DNA of 64,000 nt from Candidatus Gastranaerophilales bacterium. GTDB lineage: Bacteria > Cyanobacteriota > Vampirovibrionia > Gastranaerophilales > Gastranaerophilaceae. The translations under genes were made by a program, and so were the position numbers. Position 1 is the first letter of the stretch; every line of letters begins with the position of its first letter. Below the pieces are notes generated by a model. The model ran no database searches. It was not told the DNA's origin and worked only from the letters and a program-made list of their open reading frames with translations. Positions 236 to 63,137 of the stretch are shown one piece after another. The DNA is taken from positions 1 through 64,000 of the forward strand of contig CALUWJ010000001.1 of NCBI GenBank assembly GCA_944324455.1. The letters run 5' to 3'.

Positions 236-359
236 TCTTTTTCATTTCGCCGTTTGAGAGAAAAAAGAAGAAAAGTGAACAATTACTTAAAAGCAAAAGA
301 TGTTTGAAATAAATTTCAAAATGGGACAAATCGTTTTTGTCTTCACACACGGCTTACGC
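236..359. repeat. Direct repeat A, copy 2 (124 bp)
   Basis: Second identical copy of repeat A. A 19-bp perfect inverted repeat (224-242 with 262-280) spans its left boundary and could form a long hairpin with a 19-nt loop. The copy ends in the GACAAA/TTTGTC hairpin and the 18-nt tag at 342-359, where the tandem repeat B begins. Confidence 0.9.
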
Positions 360-629
360 GTTTTTCCGCCTGTGGGTATTTCGGCTCCGTTTGGCTAAAG
401 TCGCCAAACAGCCTCAATTATCCTACGGCGGTTTCGTACGGTTACAACAAAAGCAAGTTCAACACTTGCTTTTGTTTTCACACACGGCTTACGCATTTTT
501 CCGCCTGTGGGTATTTCGGCTCCGTTTGGCTAAAGTCGCCAAACAGCCTCAATTATCCTACGGCGGTTTCGTACGGTTACAACAAAAGCAAGTTCAACAC
601 TTGCTTTTGTTTTCACACACGGCTTACGC
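342..629. repeat. Tandem repeat B, period 135 bp (two units plus an 18-bp partial)
   Basis: Units 342-476 and 477-611 match except for one base (g360 versus a495). A partial third unit, 612-629, carries only the tag. Each unit has a GTTTGGC/GCCAAAC inverted repeat (389-395 / 403-409 in unit 1) and ends in a perfect 13-bp hairpin (446-458 / 464-476; 581-593 / 599-611). That hairpin touches the next 18-nt tag. The block looks richer in G+C than the flanking genome. Because 135 is a multiple of 3, a 113-codon frame runs through it; this is judged a by-product of the repeat. Positions 630-720 hold nothing recognisable except the approach to the next gene. Confidence 0.88.
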
Positions 630-720
630 GTTTAAAATTCATCTGTTTGTGCCATGGCAAAAAATCAAATTAATGTAATAATATAAAAGACTTAGGGAGT
701 ATTATTTAAGGGTCCAATTT

Positions 721-6676: not shown

Positions 6677-7708
6677 TTAGCCGCTATATGTTTTAAATAC
6701 AGAATCGATTGTTTCTTCAATAACCTTAGATATAGATTCCATTTCAGTTGAAATTGCTTTTTGTTCTGTATCTAATTGATTTAATTTAAGTTCAAGAGAT
6801 TTATCTTCTGTTTGGATTTTTTCAGTTTTTTGATTTATTTTTTCAACTTCTTTTTCATACATTGCTTTATCATAATAATATTGATTCATGGCATCCGTGT
6901 ATGCTGCAGTATCCTCTGATGAACCTGTTGTAATTGAATATGTATTATTCATAAGCTCAGGCGCATCATCACAGCTAATTATTTGTATTGTTGATAATCT
7001 TCCGCTTGAATCCTGTGTTAGGGCTGCTTTTGCTTGAACATTTTGAGAAGTTTTAAGAGCACCTTGGTAATCAAATGTATAATCACCATAATATCTTGTT
7101 TTGCCGTCTACATCTTCAAAAGCAGTTGAATTTAAATCATCTTCAGAAGTATAATATGCAGTTCCGTTTATCATATACATATAAAATGTACCTTCACTCA
7201 ATCCTTGAGATTGCATAATGGTAGATAAGCCTTGATATTTATCATAATCGGATGTAATTTTTGTAATAGTTGAATTATCGGGATCATTTTCGTCATAAGT
7301 AAATGAATTAATCCCTATTTGAAAATTTATATAATTATAATTACCATCTTCATCTTTTTCTACGGTTACAGTAGAATCTTTTGCTTGATATGTGTATGCT
7401 TTTGCAATTTCTTGTTGATATGAAAGCACGACATCATAATAGCCGTCATACTGACCACCATCAGTTATTTTTGTAAAACTTTCAATTTGATAATCTTCAC
7501 TTGTTGAATCAAGAGTATAAGTAGTTTTTGTATAATCATTAACTGAAGGCGGGGTTGGCACATCCAATCTGTTGTAGTCTTCATATAAACCCATAACCTC
7601 ATTGGATAGCGCTGTTCTAGCCTGATTTATCTGTTGCCCCTGATATTCAATATTACTCTTTCTTGCAGTTAAACCAAGAAAGCGAGCTTGACTTGCTGCT
7701 AATCCCAT
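6677..7708 (-). CDS. Hypothetical lineage-specific protein with conserved N-terminal SQxR motif and C-terminal coiled coil
   Basis: This 343-aa protein has unknown function. The N-terminus (MGLAASQARFLGLTARKSN) has a pattern I associate with many Vampirovibrionia proteins. The middle (about 50-270) is rich in Tyr, Thr, Asp and Ser, suggesting a beta-rich exported domain. The last ~60 residues form a coiled coil (KINQKTEKIQTEDKSLELKL) ending in VFKTYSG. The arrangement of N- and C-terminal helices around a variable core recalls axial proteins of flagella, but no flagellar family signature is present. There is no signal peptide. A good site (AAAGGTGA) precedes the ATG. A shorter relative occurs at 21624-21947. 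Confidence 0.75.
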   Translation of the reverse strand: MGLAASQARFLGLTARKSNIEYQGQQINQARTALSNEVMGLYEDYNRLDVPTPPSVNDYTKTTYTLDSTSEDYQIESFTKITDGGQYDGYYDVVLSYQQEIAKAYTYQAKDSTVTVEKDEDGNYNYINFQIGINSFTYDENDPDNSTITKITSDYDKYQGLSTIMQSQGLSEGTFYMYMINGTAYYTSEDDLNSTAFEDVDGKTRYYGDYTFDYQGALKTSQNVQAKAALTQDSSGRLSTIQIISCDDAPELMNNTYSITTGSSEDTAAYTDAMNQYYYDKAMYEKEVEKINQKTEKIQTEDKSLELKLNQLDTEQKAISTEMESISKVIEETIDSVFKTYSG

Positions 7709-7867
7709 ATTGTCACCTTTCCTTTGTATTTATAGACTTAATAACGACAATAGAAATATAATTCTTTAGGATTATTCTATTTTTATTTACATTTGTTAAC
7801 ATATTAAAGTAAGTCCTTTGTATAATAAGACTTTATAAGACTTAATGTTTTTTGGAGAAAAGTCAAA

Positions 7868-21349: not shown

Positions 21350-21619
21350 TTGCAACAATCAATTAAAGCAAATTTAAAAAGACTGTTAGTTTTCTTGAAT
21401 TATTCAAAGAATTATTTAAGAAGAAACAATCCTGTTAAAATTTTGCAAAAAGAAATTGTTGCAGGTTTAAAAGATGCACTATCCATAAACAAAAAAAGGA
21501 AAATGATTAAATACAAACTAAAATATCAAATGCATCAATTAAACCAAATGGAAAAACTGATAGCTCAAAATAATGAGCACGTTTTTCTAAAGGGTAATAA
21601 ATTTAACGAAATGAGATAA
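21350..21619 (+). CDS. Hypothetical basic helical protein, 89 aa
   Basis: Unrecognised. The protein is very basic (KRKMIKYKLKYQMHQLNQME) and predicted helical throughout. It starts at TTG with GGAG ten nt upstream. Four bases separate it from the coiled-coil gene at 21624, so the pair is likely an operon. The basic charge could favour nucleic acid or acidic-protein binding, but this is only inferred from composition. Confidence 0.55.
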   Translation: MQQSIKANLKRLLVFLNYSKNYLRRNNPVKILQKEIVAGLKDALSINKKRKMIKYKLKYQMHQLNQMEKLIAQNNEHVFLKGNKFNEMR

Positions 21620-21623
21620 GTTT

Positions 21624-21947
21624 ATGTCAATACTACTCTCACAAATGAGACTAGCGCAAATTAACAGTTATAGGGCAGATTTGGAATATAAAATCCAATT
21701 AATCTCCTCAACTAAACTTGACCTATCTTCTCAAATTAATGAATTGGTGGGCCTAGGTTCCGATATGGATCCCGACAGCCCTGAAATGAAAGCCTTAGAA
21801 AAGAAAAAAGAACGTTTATATCAGGCAGAAAAAGCTCTTGATATGCAATTACAAAGATATCAAACACAACTACAAATGATTGAATCAGAAGAACAAGGTG
21901 TTAAACAAAACTTACAAAGTTCAATTCAACGCAGCTACGCTGCTTAA
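21624..21947 (+). CDS. Hypothetical coiled-coil protein, short relative of the 343-aa SQxR protein
   Basis: This 107-aa protein is almost entirely helical. Its N-terminus (MSILLSQMRLAQINSYRADL) shares SQ-x-R, a later Arg and an EY-x2-Q-x-I pattern with the 343-aa protein at 6677-7708. The C-terminal coiled coil (KALDMQLQRYQTQLQMIE, ending IQRSYAA) also resembles that protein's C-terminus, as if it were the same family without a central domain. The function is unknown. GAGATAAG lies just upstream of the ATG. Confidence 0.72.
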   Translation: MSILLSQMRLAQINSYRADLEYKIQLISSTKLDLSSQINELVGLGSDMDPDSPEMKALEKKKERLYQAEKALDMQLQRYQTQLQMIESEEQGVKQNLQSSIQRSYAA

Positions 21948-26688: not shown

Positions 26689-28803
26689 ATGAGCAACGTT
26701 TCTTTGCAGCAAAATGGCTATGTAAATAGCTTGCAACCCGAAATTCGCAAAACAACAAAACAACCGGAGTTTTCTGCTCTTGATAAAGAGCAAATTAAAC
26801 AAGATGCAGTTGAATTAGCCCAACAAGGTCATGAGGCTGTTAAAGAAAACTGGGTTTTTTCAACAATGAGAAACGTTTTTCATATCAAAGACCCCAAAAA
26901 GTTTTTAACTTCTTTAGGTTTAACTTTAACAACGGTTGTTGGTTTAGCCTTTTTAGGCAACAAATCAACAAATAAAATGACAAAACTTGGTCAAAAAGTT
27001 GATGATTTATTGGCAAATAACAAACTTTACCAAAATACGGCGCAAAATTTAAACAATTTAAAGAATAAGACAGTTTCAACATTAAGAAAATCAAAAACCC
27101 TAGATGACGTTTTTGAAACACTTAAAACCAGAAAGGCAACTCCAAAAGCCGACTTAACAAGAGGTTATGGTAGAGGCTTTGTTTCAATTTTTTCTCTTAC
27201 ACCTGTTGATATAATAAAAACAGCATTAAACAAAAAACAAGCAAAATTACCTCAAGGACTTGCTTCTCAATTAGGCAAAAAAAATACACAAAAATTTATG
27301 GAGCTTTTTAGAAGCGACTCTCAAGCCGCATTAGATACATTGAAAAAATTAACAAACGATGAAACAAAAGCTCAAGAAATTTTTAATAATTTAACAAAAG
27401 CCGATGATGAAGTTTTAAATTCAATTAAAAAGCTTGTTGGTGAAAATAAAGCAAAAACCTTCTTTAATCAAATTACTGGATTAAATAAAATCAAAGACAA
27501 CAGAAAATTCTGTTCAGAATTAACAAATGCAATTATAGACAATTTTAATCTTAAAAATAGTTCTGGCAAAGTCAACAAAAAAGCGCTTATGTCTTTCTTT
27601 GAGGGATTACAAAAAGGCAACTATAAAGATGTTGATTTTTCCGAGTTTACAAGCGTTACAATGGACCAAGGCGGTTTAATTGGAGCTTGGTGGCCTGTAA
27701 ATGCAATAAATTCAGTTGGCAAAAAATTATTCAAAGGCAAATGGAAAGAATTCGGTAAAGGCAACCTTGGTGATGCCTTAATTAAATTTAACGATGTAAA
27801 CGGTACCCTAGCGGATACTAAAATCGGTTCTTTAGTTCAAAAATCAATCCTTATACCGACTGAATCAATTTCCAACTTTGTAAACGATAAATCAGGCTTA
27901 GGCGTTATGTTGTGCGCTAGCATTATGAGTTTATATAATAACGTTCAAGATGCACCTAAAGATAAAAAAGTTGCAACCGTTGCAGATGACTATGTAGGAA
28001 CCATGGGTTCAATTGCAATTTCTACTCCATTAGCTTTTGCAACAACATATGGACTTGCAAGTTTAAAAAATCTTGAAGGTACAACAATAAAATCAAAAGT
28101 ATTAAAAAATATCGGCAAATTCTTTGGTATGGGACTTGATAGCATAGCTAAAGACGGAACAATTATTCAAGGAACAAAAAATCCTATCTTTAGATTTGCG
28201 GGCGGTGCCTTAAGGTTTGCTTTGATTATGTTTGTATTTTCAGGAATGTTTTCTAAACCAATCAGAGGGGCAATACATAAGGTCTTTGGAAAACCTTATG
28301 ATAAAATGGAAGAACAAAAAAAAGCAGAATTAGAAGCACAAAAAAATACGATAATTCCTGAATTAGGAATAACTCAAGGTGAATTATTACAAAAAATTCA
28401 AAATAATCCTGAAGCCATCCAAAAACTCCAAACAAATCCTGAATTGATGCAAAAATTGCAAAATAATCCAAAACTCTTGATTGATTTTCTTGACGGGAAA
28501 AATGTTGATTTAAGTTCAGTTTCATCTAAGCCATCTGAAAATGAAAATATACAGCTTCAAATGAGTCCATACAATGCCAATTTAATTAATAAAAGTAAAA
28601 CTCCTAATAACCAATTAAATAAAAATAATACAACTGAAACTGTTGAAACAACAAAAACTGAACCCATAGATACTGCAACATATATCCCATCAAGTGATTT
28701 TGTTGCACCTGTTAATCAATATAGCGATGAACAAACGCAAAAAATAAACAAAGTTATGGCGGATGCAGATAAAGCATTAAAAAGAGCGGAAAAATATATC
28801 TAA
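26689..28803 (+). CDS. Large hypothetical membrane protein with NP-type 10-residue repeats
   Basis: This 704-aa protein is not recognised. It has no signal peptide and a polar, Gln-rich N-terminus. Several hydrophobic segments are visible: residues ~78-98 (FLTSLGLTLTTVVGLAFLGN), ~405-420, ~440-460 and ~505-525 (ALRFALIMFVFSGMF). Around 566-600 is a short repeat of ten residues (QNNPEAIQKL, QTNPELMQKL, QNNPKLLIDF) reminiscent of STI1-type NP repeats. The tail is Thr/Asn-rich. AGGTAAAATT precedes the ATG. It probably belongs to a lineage-restricted family. Confidence 0.7.
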   Translation: MSNVSLQQNGYVNSLQPEIRKTTKQPEFSALDKEQIKQDAVELAQQGHEAVKENWVFSTMRNVFHIKDPKKFLTSLGLTLTTVVGLAFLGNKSTNKMTKLGQKVDDLLANNKLYQNTAQNLNNLKNKTVSTLRKSKTLDDVFETLKTRKATPKADLTRGYGRGFVSIFSLTPVDIIKTALNKKQAKLPQGLASQLGKKNTQKFMELFRSDSQAALDTLKKLTNDETKAQEIFNNLTKADDEVLNSIKKLVGENKAKTFFNQITGLNKIKDNRKFCSELTNAIIDNFNLKNSSGKVNKKALMSFFEGLQKGNYKDVDFSEFTSVTMDQGGLIGAWWPVNAINSVGKKLFKGKWKEFGKGNLGDALIKFNDVNGTLADTKIGSLVQKSILIPTESISNFVNDKSGLGVMLCASIMSLYNNVQDAPKDKKVATVADDYVGTMGSIAISTPLAFATTYGLASLKNLEGTTIKSKVLKNIGKFFGMGLDSIAKDGTIIQGTKNPIFRFAGGALRFALIMFVFSGMFSKPIRGAIHKVFGKPYDKMEEQKKAELEAQKNTIIPELGITQGELLQKIQNNPEAIQKLQTNPELMQKLQNNPKLLIDFLDGKNVDLSSVSSKPSENENIQLQMSPYNANLINKSKTPNNQLNKNNTTETVETTKTEPIDTATYIPSSDFVAPVNQYSDEQTQKINKVMADADKALKRAEKYI

Positions 28804-52913: not shown

Positions 52914-53954
52914 ATGGAAAAGATAACATTAACAAAATTCTCAAAAGAAGAATTAACAGATTATATTATAAAAAATAATGAAAAAAAATTTAGAGCAGAA
53001 CAAATCTTCTCTTGGATTTGGGCTAAAAACGCATCAACATTTAATGAAATGACTGATGTAAAAAAAGAATTCAGAGAATTTTTAAATCAAAATTGCCAAA
53101 TACTTGATTGCAAAATCAAACAAAGGCAAATCTCAAAAGACGGAACCATTAAATATTTAATTCAATTTAATGACGGATTATGTGCTGAAACGGTCTTAAT
53201 GCGTTTTGACAACCGCTCTAACCTTTCTATGTGTGTATCTTGTCAAGTTGGCTGCAAAATGGGCTGCAAATTTTGTGCAACAGGTAAAAACGGATTTAAA
53301 AGAAATTTAGAACCCCATGAAATTGTTTCACAAATTCTTTTAGCACAAATTGATACAGGTTTAAAAATAACAAACGTTGTATTTATGGGACAAGGTGAAC
53401 CTTTGGATAACTTTGAAAACATTAAAAAAGCAATAAAATTAATAAATAAAAATCTTCAAATTTCAATCAGAAGAATGACTCTATCTACATCAGGAATTGT
53501 TCCAAAAATTTATGAACTTACACAAAATGAGCTTATCCCAACCTTGGCTATATCATTGCATGCGCCTAATCATAAAATTAGAGAACAAATTATGCCAATT
53601 GAAAAAAGATATGATATTAACGAATTAAAAAAAGCACTTATTAATTTTAATCAAAAAACAAAAGACAGAATAACAATAGAATACATCTTAATTGGCGGAT
53701 TGAATGACACTAAGGAATGCGCCATAGAATTAATTGAATTTTTAAAAGATATTAAATGCAATATTAATTTAATTCCCTATAATCCCGTAGATGATAATTT
53801 AGGCTTCAAAAAACCAATTAAAAAAGATATGATGAAATTTAAATACCTTCTTGAAGCCTCAGGTAAAAAAGTTACCATAAGACTGGAAAGAGGAGCTGAT
53901 ATTGACGCTGCCTGCGGACAATTAGCAGGAAAAATTAACCAAGATATGAACTAA
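52914..53954 (+). CDS. rlmN: Dual-specificity RNA methyltransferase RlmN
   Basis: This 346-aa radical SAM enzyme makes 2-methyladenosine at 23S rRNA A2503 and in some tRNAs. The cluster motif is GCKMGCKFCATG (CxxxCxxC). Other features are QGEPLDNFENIKKAI, ISLHAPNHKIREQIMP and the C-terminal ADIDAACGQL with the methyl-carrying Cys. It appears leaderless. Its 3' end overlaps the convergent fliD gene by 20 bp. Confidence 0.96.
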   Translation: MEKITLTKFSKEELTDYIIKNNEKKFRAEQIFSWIWAKNASTFNEMTDVKKEFREFLNQNCQILDCKIKQRQISKDGTIKYLIQFNDGLCAETVLMRFDNRSNLSMCVSCQVGCKMGCKFCATGKNGFKRNLEPHEIVSQILLAQIDTGLKITNVVFMGQGEPLDNFENIKKAIKLINKNLQISIRRMTLSTSGIVPKIYELTQNELIPTLAISLHAPNHKIREQIMPIEKRYDINELKKALINFNQKTKDRITIEYILIGGLNDTKECAIELIEFLKDIKCNINLIPYNPVDDNLGFKKPIKKDMMKFKYLLEASGKKVTIRLERGADIDAACGQLAGKINQDMN

Positions 53955-55770
53955 ATGCACTCAATTGGCTGTTTAGTGCAGATATGATTGAATCCATTTT
54001 ATTAAATTGCTTATATAATCTTTCTTCATAAGAAGTTATACGATTAGTTGCACGTTCAATTCTTGAATTCATAGATGTAATTTGCGATTGAATACTATCT
54101 GATTTATTTGCAAAATAACCGTTTTCAAAATCAAGAGCATTTTCAATATCTACAAGCATTTGGTCAAATATGCCGTTATCTGTTTTTGATGTATAGCCGT
54201 CAGATAAAAGCATTTTTACAGATTCAAAATCTTCAGATAATGCTTTATCTAATTTTTCTTCGTCAATCGTTAAATTAACAGCATCAGATTTTGATGTTGA
54301 AATACCAATTTCAGCAAGCATTGAAAAAGCACCATCATTATCGCTTATAGCTGAAGTTACACCTCTAATATTATTCAATAATGAATTTAAACTAGAGTCA
54401 TGCCCTATATTACCTGATGAAGAAGTTTCTGTTCTAATTGTTGTAACTAAGTCATTATAGGCTTTTACGAATGTATTTAGAGCCTCTTTAACTTCTGTAT
54501 AATCAGGAGAAATATCAAGAGTTACATTTTTATCATCTTTTTCATTATTTGAATAATCACTTGTCGGCTTTTTAATTGTAATTGATAAATTTGCAATCCC
54601 TGAAGCTTCGCCTGTAATAGTGTTAGATGAAGAAATAACTTTATTTCCGTTAATATATGCTATTGCATTTTGTCCTAGAGTTTGAGAGCCTTCTGCGAGT
54701 TTTTCATTTTCACCCTCGCCCTCGGTTAATCCTAAGACATTTAATAAATTAGTACCTTCTTCAGACAAACTAATATTACTTTGACCTGTTTGGGTTGAAG
54801 TTAAAACTAATTTGTTTGTTAAAGAATCATAACTTGCCTTAACATTAGCATCAGAATTACCGTTAATTCTTGAAATCAAATTATTCAAAGTTGTTGTTTC
54901 ATTAATTTCAAAATCAACACCGTTAATTGTTATTTTTCCTGTTTGTGCCGGATTTCCGTCTTCATCAAAAAACTTGATTTCACCGAGCCCTGATTCTTGA
55001 CTAACCATAGCAGCACTTGTATTAACCAAAGAAACAGGGTAAGCGCTTTTATAGCCAGAACCGTCTTTTTCATTAAGTTTTAGAGCAGTAACAATATTAG
55101 ATGTGTCTCCGCCTGAACCTATCATAAGATTAGCGGAAGTATCTTCGACATATGTTGTTGAACCGTCAACCACTTGTTCTTTATATGCTTTTATTGAAAA
55201 ATTACCGCTATCATCAACAGAAGCTTGAATTTTGCCATCTGATGCGGTATTAATTTTATCTATTACATCTTGTACTGTATCACTTTGAGCAATTTCAATC
55301 TTATATTCTTTTCCATCTAAAAACATTGAAAAAGTGCCTGCTTTTGCTTGTCCGTTTGCAAGATTAACAAACTTAGCGCTTTCGATATTTTCTTTTGAAA
55401 TTGTACCTAAACTATTTGCACTTTTCGCAATAGTTGAAGTTGCAATTTGCTCAATTTGCAAATCAACATTGGCACTTGCAACGCTACCCGTTGAAATAGC
55501 AGTTGCATAAGCATCATTTGATGAAGTGATAGTTGTATTTGTCCACATATCACTTGATGAATTATATATTGTTGTTGTAAAAGCTTTAAGCGCAGATTGA
55601 AGTGTTGTAAATTTTGTTTTAATGCTTGATATAGTGCTATCTGTCTTTTGTAAACTCTCTAATTTTGTTTGCAGAGGAGTTAAAGATGAAGTCTTTTTAG
55701 CACTAACTAACTGGGAGACCCAGCTTTCAATATCAAACCCTGATCCTACGCCTGTAATTGTAGAAGACAT
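53935..55770 (-). CDS. fliD: Flagellar hook-associated protein 2 (filament cap) FliD
   Basis: This 611-aa protein has the FliD_N domain (ITGVGSGFDIESWVSQLVSA, ~1-100), a Ser/Thr-rich middle with flagellin-hook IN motifs (~280-340; FEINETTTLNNLISRING) and the FliD_C domain (~405-600) ending in a coiled coil (MNSRIERATNRITSYEERL). It is exported by the flagellar type III system and caps the filament during growth. AAAGGAT precedes the ATG. No fliS or flagellin is adjacent. Confidence 0.95.
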   Translation of the reverse strand: MSSTITGVGSGFDIESWVSQLVSAKKTSSLTPLQTKLESLQKTDSTISSIKTKFTTLQSALKAFTTTIYNSSSDMWTNTTITSSNDAYATAISTGSVASANVDLQIEQIATSTIAKSANSLGTISKENIESAKFVNLANGQAKAGTFSMFLDGKEYKIEIAQSDTVQDVIDKINTASDGKIQASVDDSGNFSIKAYKEQVVDGSTTYVEDTSANLMIGSGGDTSNIVTALKLNEKDGSGYKSAYPVSLVNTSAAMVSQESGLGEIKFFDEDGNPAQTGKITINGVDFEINETTTLNNLISRINGNSDANVKASYDSLTNKLVLTSTQTGQSNISLSEEGTNLLNVLGLTEGEGENEKLAEGSQTLGQNAIAYINGNKVISSSNTITGEASGIANLSITIKKPTSDYSNNEKDDKNVTLDISPDYTEVKEALNTFVKAYNDLVTTIRTETSSSGNIGHDSSLNSLLNNIRGVTSAISDNDGAFSMLAEIGISTSKSDAVNLTIDEEKLDKALSEDFESVKMLLSDGYTSKTDNGIFDQMLVDIENALDFENGYFANKSDSIQSQITSMNSRIERATNRITSYEERLYKQFNKMDSIISALNSQLSAFSSYLG

Positions 55771-62230: not shown

Positions 62231-62342
62231 AAACATTTTTTTTCAATTAATATATAAATTTTTTTTAAAAAATTTAGCAATTTTTTTATCCAAAATGTTT
62301 TTATTTAAATATGATGTTATCAAGAGTATTAGGAGAGAAAAC

Positions 62343-63137
62343 ATGGCAGAACAATCAGGTCTCATAAGTATGGAAACAGTGCGTTCATACAAAAAAACAA
62401 GCGATGCTTTTAGTGTATTTAGAGGAATAAATCAAGCGCAAAAAAATGAATATGATAACGAAACAGATACTTCAATAATAGATTTAGCAGCACAAAAAGC
62501 TTCTGAAGAAAAAAACTCATCAGCTTTAACAGTTGCACTTAATGATTTTACGCAAAAACTTTGCTCTTTCCACGGAAAAAATTCTTCAAATATAAGCGCA
62601 AAAGATTCAAAAAAACTATTTTTTATTTTTGGCACAGGAAATATATTTGAATCAAAAGAAGGGCAAGAAATTCTGCAAAACGGAAACATATTTCAAAAAG
62701 ATATTTTTACTCAAGCAAGAGCAAAAAACAACGGTATTGAATACGCTCAAGACGATTTAAGCTTAGTTGAAAGTGCTTTAGAATTCGCAAAAGCAGATAT
62801 TGCAGCCATTGAAAAATCTGCAAAACTAGCAGGAGGAGGCCGAGCTGATGGAAAATTGAGCTACAAAGATATTCAATCATACACTGACACAAATGATTTC
62901 ACTATCGTAAAAGACCTTAATTTAGACAACAAAGAAGATTACATTTCAGCTGAAGAATATGCCAGCTACTTACTGGCTGCTGACAGCATCAGTCAATCAA
63001 ATAACGAAGTAACTTTTGAGAACAATAAATCCGATGGAATAATTTCAGCAGATGAAGCATATCTGGTTGAAAAATGCAATGATGCAAAAATTAAAGCAAT
63101 AGCACAAAAATATTATGACAGATACTTTACAAAATAA
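62343..63137 (+). CDS. Hypothetical protein with EF-hand-like motifs
   Basis: This 264-aa protein starts at MAEQSGLISMETVRSYKK, chosen because AGGAGAG precedes the ATG. The second half holds three degenerate calcium-loop motifs: RADGKLSYKD (~180), DLNLDNKEDYISAEE (~205) and KSDGIISADE (~238). No signal peptide or membrane segment is visible. A calcium-responsive or structural role is inferred from these motifs alone. A terminator follows. Confidence 0.72.
   Translation: MAEQSGLISMETVRSYKKTSDAFSVFRGINQAQKNEYDNETDTSIIDLAAQKASEEKNSSALTVALNDFTQKLCSFHGKNSSNISAKDSKKLFFIFGTGNIFESKEGQEILQNGNIFQKDIFTQARAKNNGIEYAQDDLSLVESALEFAKADIAAIEKSAKLAGGGRADGKLSYKDIQSYTDTNDFTIVKDLNLDNKEDYISAEEYASYLLAADSISQSNNEVTFENNKSDGIISADEAYLVEKCNDAKIKAIAQKYYDRYFTK

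Follow-up and report, generated by a model that had tools for sequence, protein, structure and literature searches.

Helical-hairpin proteins in a short and a long form accompany a second lineage of flagellar-type export genes in Gastranaerophilales

Two genes in a genome of Candidatus Gastranaerophilales bacterium raise the question of whether proteins with conserved helical ends and a variable middle part are building blocks of an extracellular assembly. Both lie in the 64,000-nucleotide (nt) stretch analysed here (contig CALUWJ010000001.1, referred to as the window), and their products, of 343 and 107 amino acids (aa; P0002 and P0001, respectively), are by sequence comparison the long and the short form of one family. 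We report this family and its two forms, its co-occurrence with flagellar-type export genes, the separate FlhA lineage found with it, its gene linkage and a promoter motif. With moderate confidence we interpret the family as an exported axial or surface component of a second flagellar-type secretion system, comprising subunits of a needle or filament together with surface variants. Coordinates are collected in Table 1.

Long and short forms of one family

In a direct comparison, similarity between the two window proteins was weak (BLASTP E 8e-5, 28% identity over 69 aa). For a held-out test, 21 long members were used to build two hidden Markov models (HMMs), one of the first 48 residues and one of the last 75. 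The C-terminal model detected the 107-aa protein at E 3.8e-4; the N-terminal model ranked it second among the open reading frames (ORFs) of the window at E 0.11, which is by itself not significant. This gap was bridged by relatives of the short form, 34 of 38 of which matched the N-terminal model and 30 of 38 the C-terminal model at 1e-3 or better, a level reached by 0 of 760 shuffled short sequences. When a profile of 17 short forms was compared with that of the 21 long members (no shared rows), a probability of 99.7 (E 7.6e-26) was obtained over 110 columns, which covered the whole short form and spanned positions 1 to 343 of the long protein. A preliminary description of the window had proposed that the two proteins share both termini and that the shorter one lacks the middle domain, and these comparisons bear out both proposals.

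It had also described the core as variable, which is true of paralogues but not of near orthologues. Mean pairwise identity among the 21 long members was 0.73 in the N-terminal part, 0.29 in the core and 0.62 in the C-terminal part, and the corresponding values among the five close orthologues were 0.96, 0.88 and 0.89. Long members are proteins of about 243-630 aa, with cores of widely differing length.

The architecture of the family is, in predicted structures, a helical hairpin, and the long form adds a beta-rich insert in its turn. The model of the short form consisted of helices 2-45 and 53-106 (pLDDT 92.4, from 3 aligned sequences). That of the long form contained a helix at 2-46, a beta-rich insert at about 50-265 and a helix at 267-341, with a mean pLDDT of 69.3 that was about 77-93 in the helix blocks and mostly 43-60 in the core.

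Neither window protein reached a Pfam or NCBIfam cut-off or matched PHROGs, and no flagellin family in Pfam or NCBIfam, PF00669 included, was matched. Comparison with the four flagellins of the window's genome gave an hhalign probability of 0.1-0.2. The 17 short forms matched coiled-coil families only (best E 5.3e-4 in Pfam and 4.6e-5 in NCBIfam), the latter value belonging to the BexC/CtrB/KpsE coiled coils, which were matched by 7 of 17; the best match among PDB sequences was the coiled coil CSM1 (E 3.4e-4). Among the Pfam and NCBIfam matches of these 17 sequences there was no needle (SctF) family and no FliJ/YscO export-stalk family. Identities as needle protein, flagellin, FliJ or effector were rejected, as no such named family was found in Pfam, NCBIfam, PHROGs or PDB sequences and coiled coils were the best matches. 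Thus, the earlier statement that no known flagellin, hook or needle signature is present was correct at the level of sequence (Pfam, NCBIfam, hhalign). The helical-hairpin family as a whole is undescribed; a literature search, which reached few subscription papers, found no description of such a system.

Occurrence with export genes and a second FlhA lineage

Distribution was assessed in 146 genomes of the class, including 52 from the family of the window's genome (f1), 18 from f3, f8 and f9 together and 25 from f4-f6. These genomes are related, and the counts are therefore not independent. A class-wide search with the N-terminal HMM, as suggested in the preliminary description, detected the N-module in 70 of 146 genomes, namely in all 52 of f1 and all 18 of f3, f8 and f9. 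The family expansion envisaged there was also found: five N-module genes are present in the window's genome (two in the window, with paralogues on contigs C6, C23 and C4) and 7-15 in each of the other 51 f1 genomes, where contig ends may inflate copy numbers. The short form occurred in 69 of the 70 N-module genomes; it was single-copy in 51 of 52 f1 genomes and present in 1-7 copies in f3, f8 and f9, the maximum of seven per genome being found in f3. Because short forms equalled or outnumbered N-module matches in 17 of the 18 f3/f8/f9 genomes, they seem to be ancestral, and the insert-bearing forms seem to represent an expansion in f1. Scanning of 84,980 species with patterns derived from the 343-aa protein returned 30 loci, in records titled Gastranaerophilales, Adamsella, Cyanobacteria or uncultured bacterium.

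Co-occurrence with flagellar-type export genes, a test suggested in the preliminary description, was observed. All 70 N-module genomes had a match to FlhA (PF00771), which was full-length in 69. The exception, G088, had weak matches that were not full-length (best 2.8e-48) and came only from the soluble FlhA-domain protein; it also lacked the short form and the 272-aa companion described below, which fits an assembly gap. In the whole sample, FlhA was matched in 94 genomes, FliP in 91, FlhB in 93 and Flagellin_N in 28, and FliA was above cut-off in 94, all 52 f1 genomes included. A flagellin match was missing in 51 of 70 N-module genomes, and within f1 PF00669 was found in the window's genome only (51 of 52 without a match); conversely, nine genomes had flagellin and no N-module. 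Fisher tests that ignore relatedness gave p 3e-21 for association of the N-module with FlhA and 0.02 for flagellin.

The window's genome carries two sets of export genes, including two FlhB and two FliP. On contig C2, FliP, FliQ, FliR and FlhB accompany a flagellar FlhA (847 bits, cut-off 772). On C5, genes for a transglycosylase, FliE, a FliF-like protein, a protein without family and FliH are followed by a second FlhA, which stayed under the cut-offs of both FlhA (684 bits vs 772) and the injectisome gate protein SctV (586 vs 692). FliE of this cluster was above cut-off, and the FliF-like protein scored 115 bits (cut-off 129.75). In addition, C13 encodes a FliN/SctQ-like protein, FliO, FliP, FliQ and FliR. 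Phylogenetic analysis of 21 FlhA sequences, which did not include the contig-cut FlhA of G009 C42, resolved a flagellar clade (E. coli, window C2, f3/f8/f9 and two f4 rows) and a second clade (window C5, two f1 genomes, second copies of f3/f8/f9, and f4-f6), each with 100/100 support. Mutual attraction between the long branch of E. coli and the second clade may affect this tree; a tree of 15 sequences that omitted E. coli again gave two lineages at 100/100. Within the second clade, the N-module accompanies the f1/f3/f8/f9 branch. Two or more copies were present in 17 of 18 f3/f8/f9 genomes for FlhA, in 16 for FliP and in 16 for FlhB. In G004, which lacks flagellin, FlgB-, FlgC- and FlgF/G-like rod genes and FliA lie within about 7 kb, and PF00460 was found in all 52 f1 genomes, with four matches in G004. 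Compared with a flagellum, the associated machine has FliE and rod proteins; its FlhA is not of the flagellar type, and a flagellin match is absent from 51 of 52 f1 genomes.

A different form of FlhA was seen in G004, where a 492-aa protein (Table 1) corresponds to the cytosolic domain without the membrane part (PF00771 166 bits, residues 139-481). Many f1 genomes contain comparable PF00771 matches, each about 500 aa long. To our knowledge, it is unusual for the docking domain of FlhA to exist as a free protein.

Flagella-related genes in flagellin-free members of the class have so far been read as remains of a lost flagellum, at least in the accessible parts of two studies (PMC3787301, PMC4040986). 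In the parts available, Di Rienzi 2013 (PMC3787301) described MEL.A1 as lacking filament, cap, junction and L/P-ring genes and ascribed this to genome reduction, with two flhA genes in ACD20 given in the methods without comment there, and Soo 2014 (PMC4040986) reported that only a subset of the flagellar genes, one that would not yield a flagellum, remains in six of nine Gastranaerophilales genomes. According to this explanation, flagellin-free genomes merely retain part of a flagellar gene set. However, the FlhA that these genomes retain belongs to a lineage of its own, which in other genomes, among them that of the window, occurs together with flagellar FlhA. Moreover, nearly every f1 genome sampled has the same parts, and no internal stops interrupt the listed matches to the family and to FlhA. 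We consider decay very improbable as the explanation. It is similarly hard to believe that the family provides minor components of the true flagellum: the window's genome does have flagellins and FliD, and its C6 paralogue adjoins FlgL and FlgK, but most N-module genomes lack a flagellin match and nine flagellin genomes lack the module.

Promoters, gene neighbourhood and structural likeness

Sigma28-like sites were detected upstream of both window loci. The site before the 343-aa gene is at an identical position in four orthologues that are 87-90% identical; it is weak by itself, as 51 of 100 shuffles matched the textbook motif equally well. In a first promoter scan of 27 upstream regions, many were no better than shuffles against that motif, and the site before the 89-aa ORF lay just beyond its range. 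A TAAAG-N14-16-CG motif, usually 60-74 nt before long members, was present in 36 of 60 distinct upstream regions, compared with 13 of 943 other ORFs and 2 of 98 with the reversed pattern. At held-out loci, which had played no part in the choice of the motif, it preceded 23 of 30 long members and 7 of 495 control ORFs. Because some upstream regions come from near-identical orthologues, and the loci were best matches, p-values from these counts are too small. The one flagellin gene examined had a similar site with spacing one base shorter. Given the strong enrichment of the motif, we propose that long members have sigma28-type (late) expression. Of 10 motif sites in the window's genome, four precede family genes and three precede small ORFs without family; the four are not independent, because the patterns were written after those sites were seen. 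These three small ORFs, in L088, L090 and L093, lie directly downstream of the sites and are possible further regulon members.

Promoters of this type mark substrates as well as filament genes, and the conserved ends could instead be a secretion and chaperone-binding signal on non-structural proteins, the cores being effectors or adhesins delivered by the second system. Scattered module genes, their 7-15 copies per genome and cores of very different length and low identity (0.29) would suit such cargo. However, conservation of both ends and their pairing as one hairpin go beyond the needs of an N-terminal signal, and the short form, although conserved, lacks any cargo domain. Thus, we regard a purely effector-like role as unlikely.

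Short forms were linked to apparatus genes. In loci L077, L100, L101 and L040, the gene order is long member, 272-289-aa gene, 90-91-aa gene and short form, and a FliE-FliF-FliH-FlhA cluster lies nearby in the first three. The window retains only the last two genes of this order (21350-21947), and the 272-aa gene of its genome is on C6. In 45 of 49 f1 genomes, no more than 4 kb separated the short form from the 272-aa gene, and the distance was 38-252 bp in 16 of the 17 f3/f8/f9 genomes that have this gene; the exception, G068, had no listed short gene on the same contig. In 32 of 50 f1 genomes the short form was on the contig that carries FlhA, in every case at a distance of 6.5-15.1 kb. The companion of 272-290 aa, present in 67 of 146 genomes, is rich in glycine and alanine and had no match in Pfam; its composition alone raises the idea that it might be a candidate pore-forming translocator.

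The model of the 343-aa protein was most similar to flagellar proteins. In VIA-align, where Z below 8 (below 13 for long helices) may mean merely a common arrangement, 26 of the top 28 rows were flagellar axial or cap proteins (FliC, FliD, FlgL, FlgE, FlgG, FlgD), although many of these rows are one and the same family. Rows 1-12 were all flagellar; the best had Z 10.2 (rmsd 4.6, 140 residues), E. coli FliC had Z 9.1 (rmsd 2.2 over 109), and an ion channel ranked 13th (Z 8.3). The flagellin-type trait of helical ends around a variable outer domain is predicted for this protein, but the core of the model is of low confidence and the Z values may stem from a shared arrangement of helices or strands. 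The needle-type trait, a helical hairpin with a short turn, is predicted for the short form and is a very common shape. Foldseek with the short model gave no match at E<=0.001, the best being a translocator coiled coil (E 0.016). The axial-protein-like design put forward in the preliminary description is therefore supported by structure prediction only, and the family is not tied to the flagellum itself, because most N-module genomes have no flagellin match and the export genes belong to the second FlhA lineage.

A plain antiparallel coiled coil, with CT398 and HP0958 near the top of its structural rows and YscO lower, is also what a cytosolic part of the export machine (a FliJ/YscO-like stalk, chaperone or scaffold, with long members as regulators) might look like, and in f1 there is one copy of the short form, next to the apparatus genes. 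We find this quite improbable in view of the up to seven short copies per genome in f3, the many insert-bearing paralogues, the late-gene-type promoters of long members and the lack of a FliJ-family match.

Among other features of the window, a 280-aa protein has aspartate-rich, EF-hand-like stretches (read by eye), and its sole NCBIfam match, to a secreted-effector family, was below cut-off (E 0.00097) and probably due to chance. Repeat-derived translations near the contig start, similar to ones near contig starts in L012, L080 and L093, probably represent a repeated element that breaks assembly.

Table 1. Positions of features in the window and in related loci
Feature	Position	Strand	Evidence or remark
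343-aa long form (P0002)	6677..7708	minus	ORF and translation; family searches; predicted structure
107-aa short form (P0001)	21624..21947	plus	ORF; predicted helical hairpin with DPDSPE turn; predicted structure
89-aa ORF, TTG start	21350..21619	plus	counterpart of the 90-91-aa ORF preceding the short form in L077, L100, L101 and L040; no family match
Sigma28-like site TAAAGAAT-N12-GTCGTTA	7742..7768	minus	consensus match; starts 60 nt before ATG of the 343-aa gene
Sigma28-like site TAAAGTTT-N12-GACGAAA	21217..21243	plus	consensus match; about 106 nt upstream of the two-gene unit's 89-aa ORF
Conserved 272-290-aa companion	L077:585-1403; L136:795-1667; L040:10794-11663		beside short form
Small ORFs downstream of sigma28-like sites	L088:4252-4638; L090:5122-5391; L093:1028-1534	minus	
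492-aa FlhA-domain protein of G004	L078:7725-9203	minus	PF00771
FliD, flagellar cap protein	53935-55770	minus	PF07195, PF02465; part of the genome's true flagellum
280-aa protein	62295-63137	plus	
110-aa ORF	1321-1653	plus	no NCBIfam match
704-aa ORF	26689-28803	plus	no NCBIfam match
Repeat-derived translations	337-678		

Proposed role and comparison with known systems

In the interpretation that we favor, family members would be exported by a second type III secretion system of flagellar type, with second-lineage FlhA, FlhB, FliP, FliQ, FliR, FliO, FliE, a FliF-like ring protein, FliH, a FliN/SctQ-like protein and rod proteins as its putative parts, and would build or decorate its extracellular needle or filament. 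The bare 107-aa hairpin is the likely basic subunit, and f3, f8 and f9 genomes have essentially short forms only. Long members would retain both helices for packing, with the variable beta-rich domain in the turn facing outwards, as in flagellin, and would be switched on from sigma28-type promoters. Export, polymerisation, surface exposure and the role of the insert are steps that we infer.

Several observations weigh against this interpretation. There was no sequence relation to flagellin or FlgL (hhalign probability 0.1-0.9). Structural likeness is weak by the VIA-align yardstick, even for the best row, and the long-form core is of low confidence; Foldseek with the long model found no match at E<=0.001 (best flagellin E 0.0084, prob 0.33), and the short model resembles coiled-coil hairpins generally, with 483 of 942 chains at Z>=8. 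The promoter motif was within 160 nt upstream in only 2 of 38 short-form regions; it is not enriched overall in the window's genome, where the reversed control gave 8 sites vs 10, and is thus alone not specific there. Long genes are mostly away from apparatus genes. The N-module was found in 0 of 25 genomes of f4-f6, which have the second FlhA, so it is not a universal part of the machine unless replaced or too diverged. Finally, export and assembly of the family are themselves proposals.

A broader and more tentative suggestion is that these bacteria possess a further type III organelle, neither flagellum nor classical injectisome, in which a flagellar-type base carries a needle or filament made from the new hairpin family, and addition of a domain in the turn gave flagellin-like surface variants. 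If so, it would be an independent parallel to the needle/flagellin pair, widespread in gut-living non-photosynthetic relatives of Cyanobacteria. If the favored interpretation is right, many of these gut bacteria have an organelle devoted to secretion and equipped with variable surface proteins of its own, which would be a candidate means of contact with hosts or neighbours. The occurrence of both forms together would also allow tests of how a needle-like protein becomes flagellin-like through an insert in the hairpin turn.

The long form resembles FliC, FlgL, FliD and FlgE in its conserved, predicted helical ends, variable and probably exposed core and sigma28-like promoter motifs, and likeness to flagellar axial proteins extends to flagellar-type export genes in the same genomes and to the top structural alignments. 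Unlike flagellin, to which it is unrelated in sequence, it has one helix only at each end, and the family is present where flagellin was not found. The short form, predicted to be a short helical hairpin with a proline-containing turn, is in this respect similar to the injectisome needle SctF, whose turn its own presumably resembles; however, none of the 17 short forms matched a needle family, and the protein is longer (about 107-109 aa) and has insert-bearing paralogues. As a further difference, the associated FlhA scores nearer to FlhA than to SctV, while remaining under both cut-offs. Flagellar-type secretion without a filament has been described for Buchnera basal bodies (PMC8109811) and Lysobacter flagellar export homologues (PMC7277350). 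As far as the accessible parts of those reports go, the present system is similar to them in having flagellar export genes in non-flagellated cells, and differs from them in its second FlhA lineage, which can occur alongside a true flagellum and is accompanied by a candidate axial family of its own.
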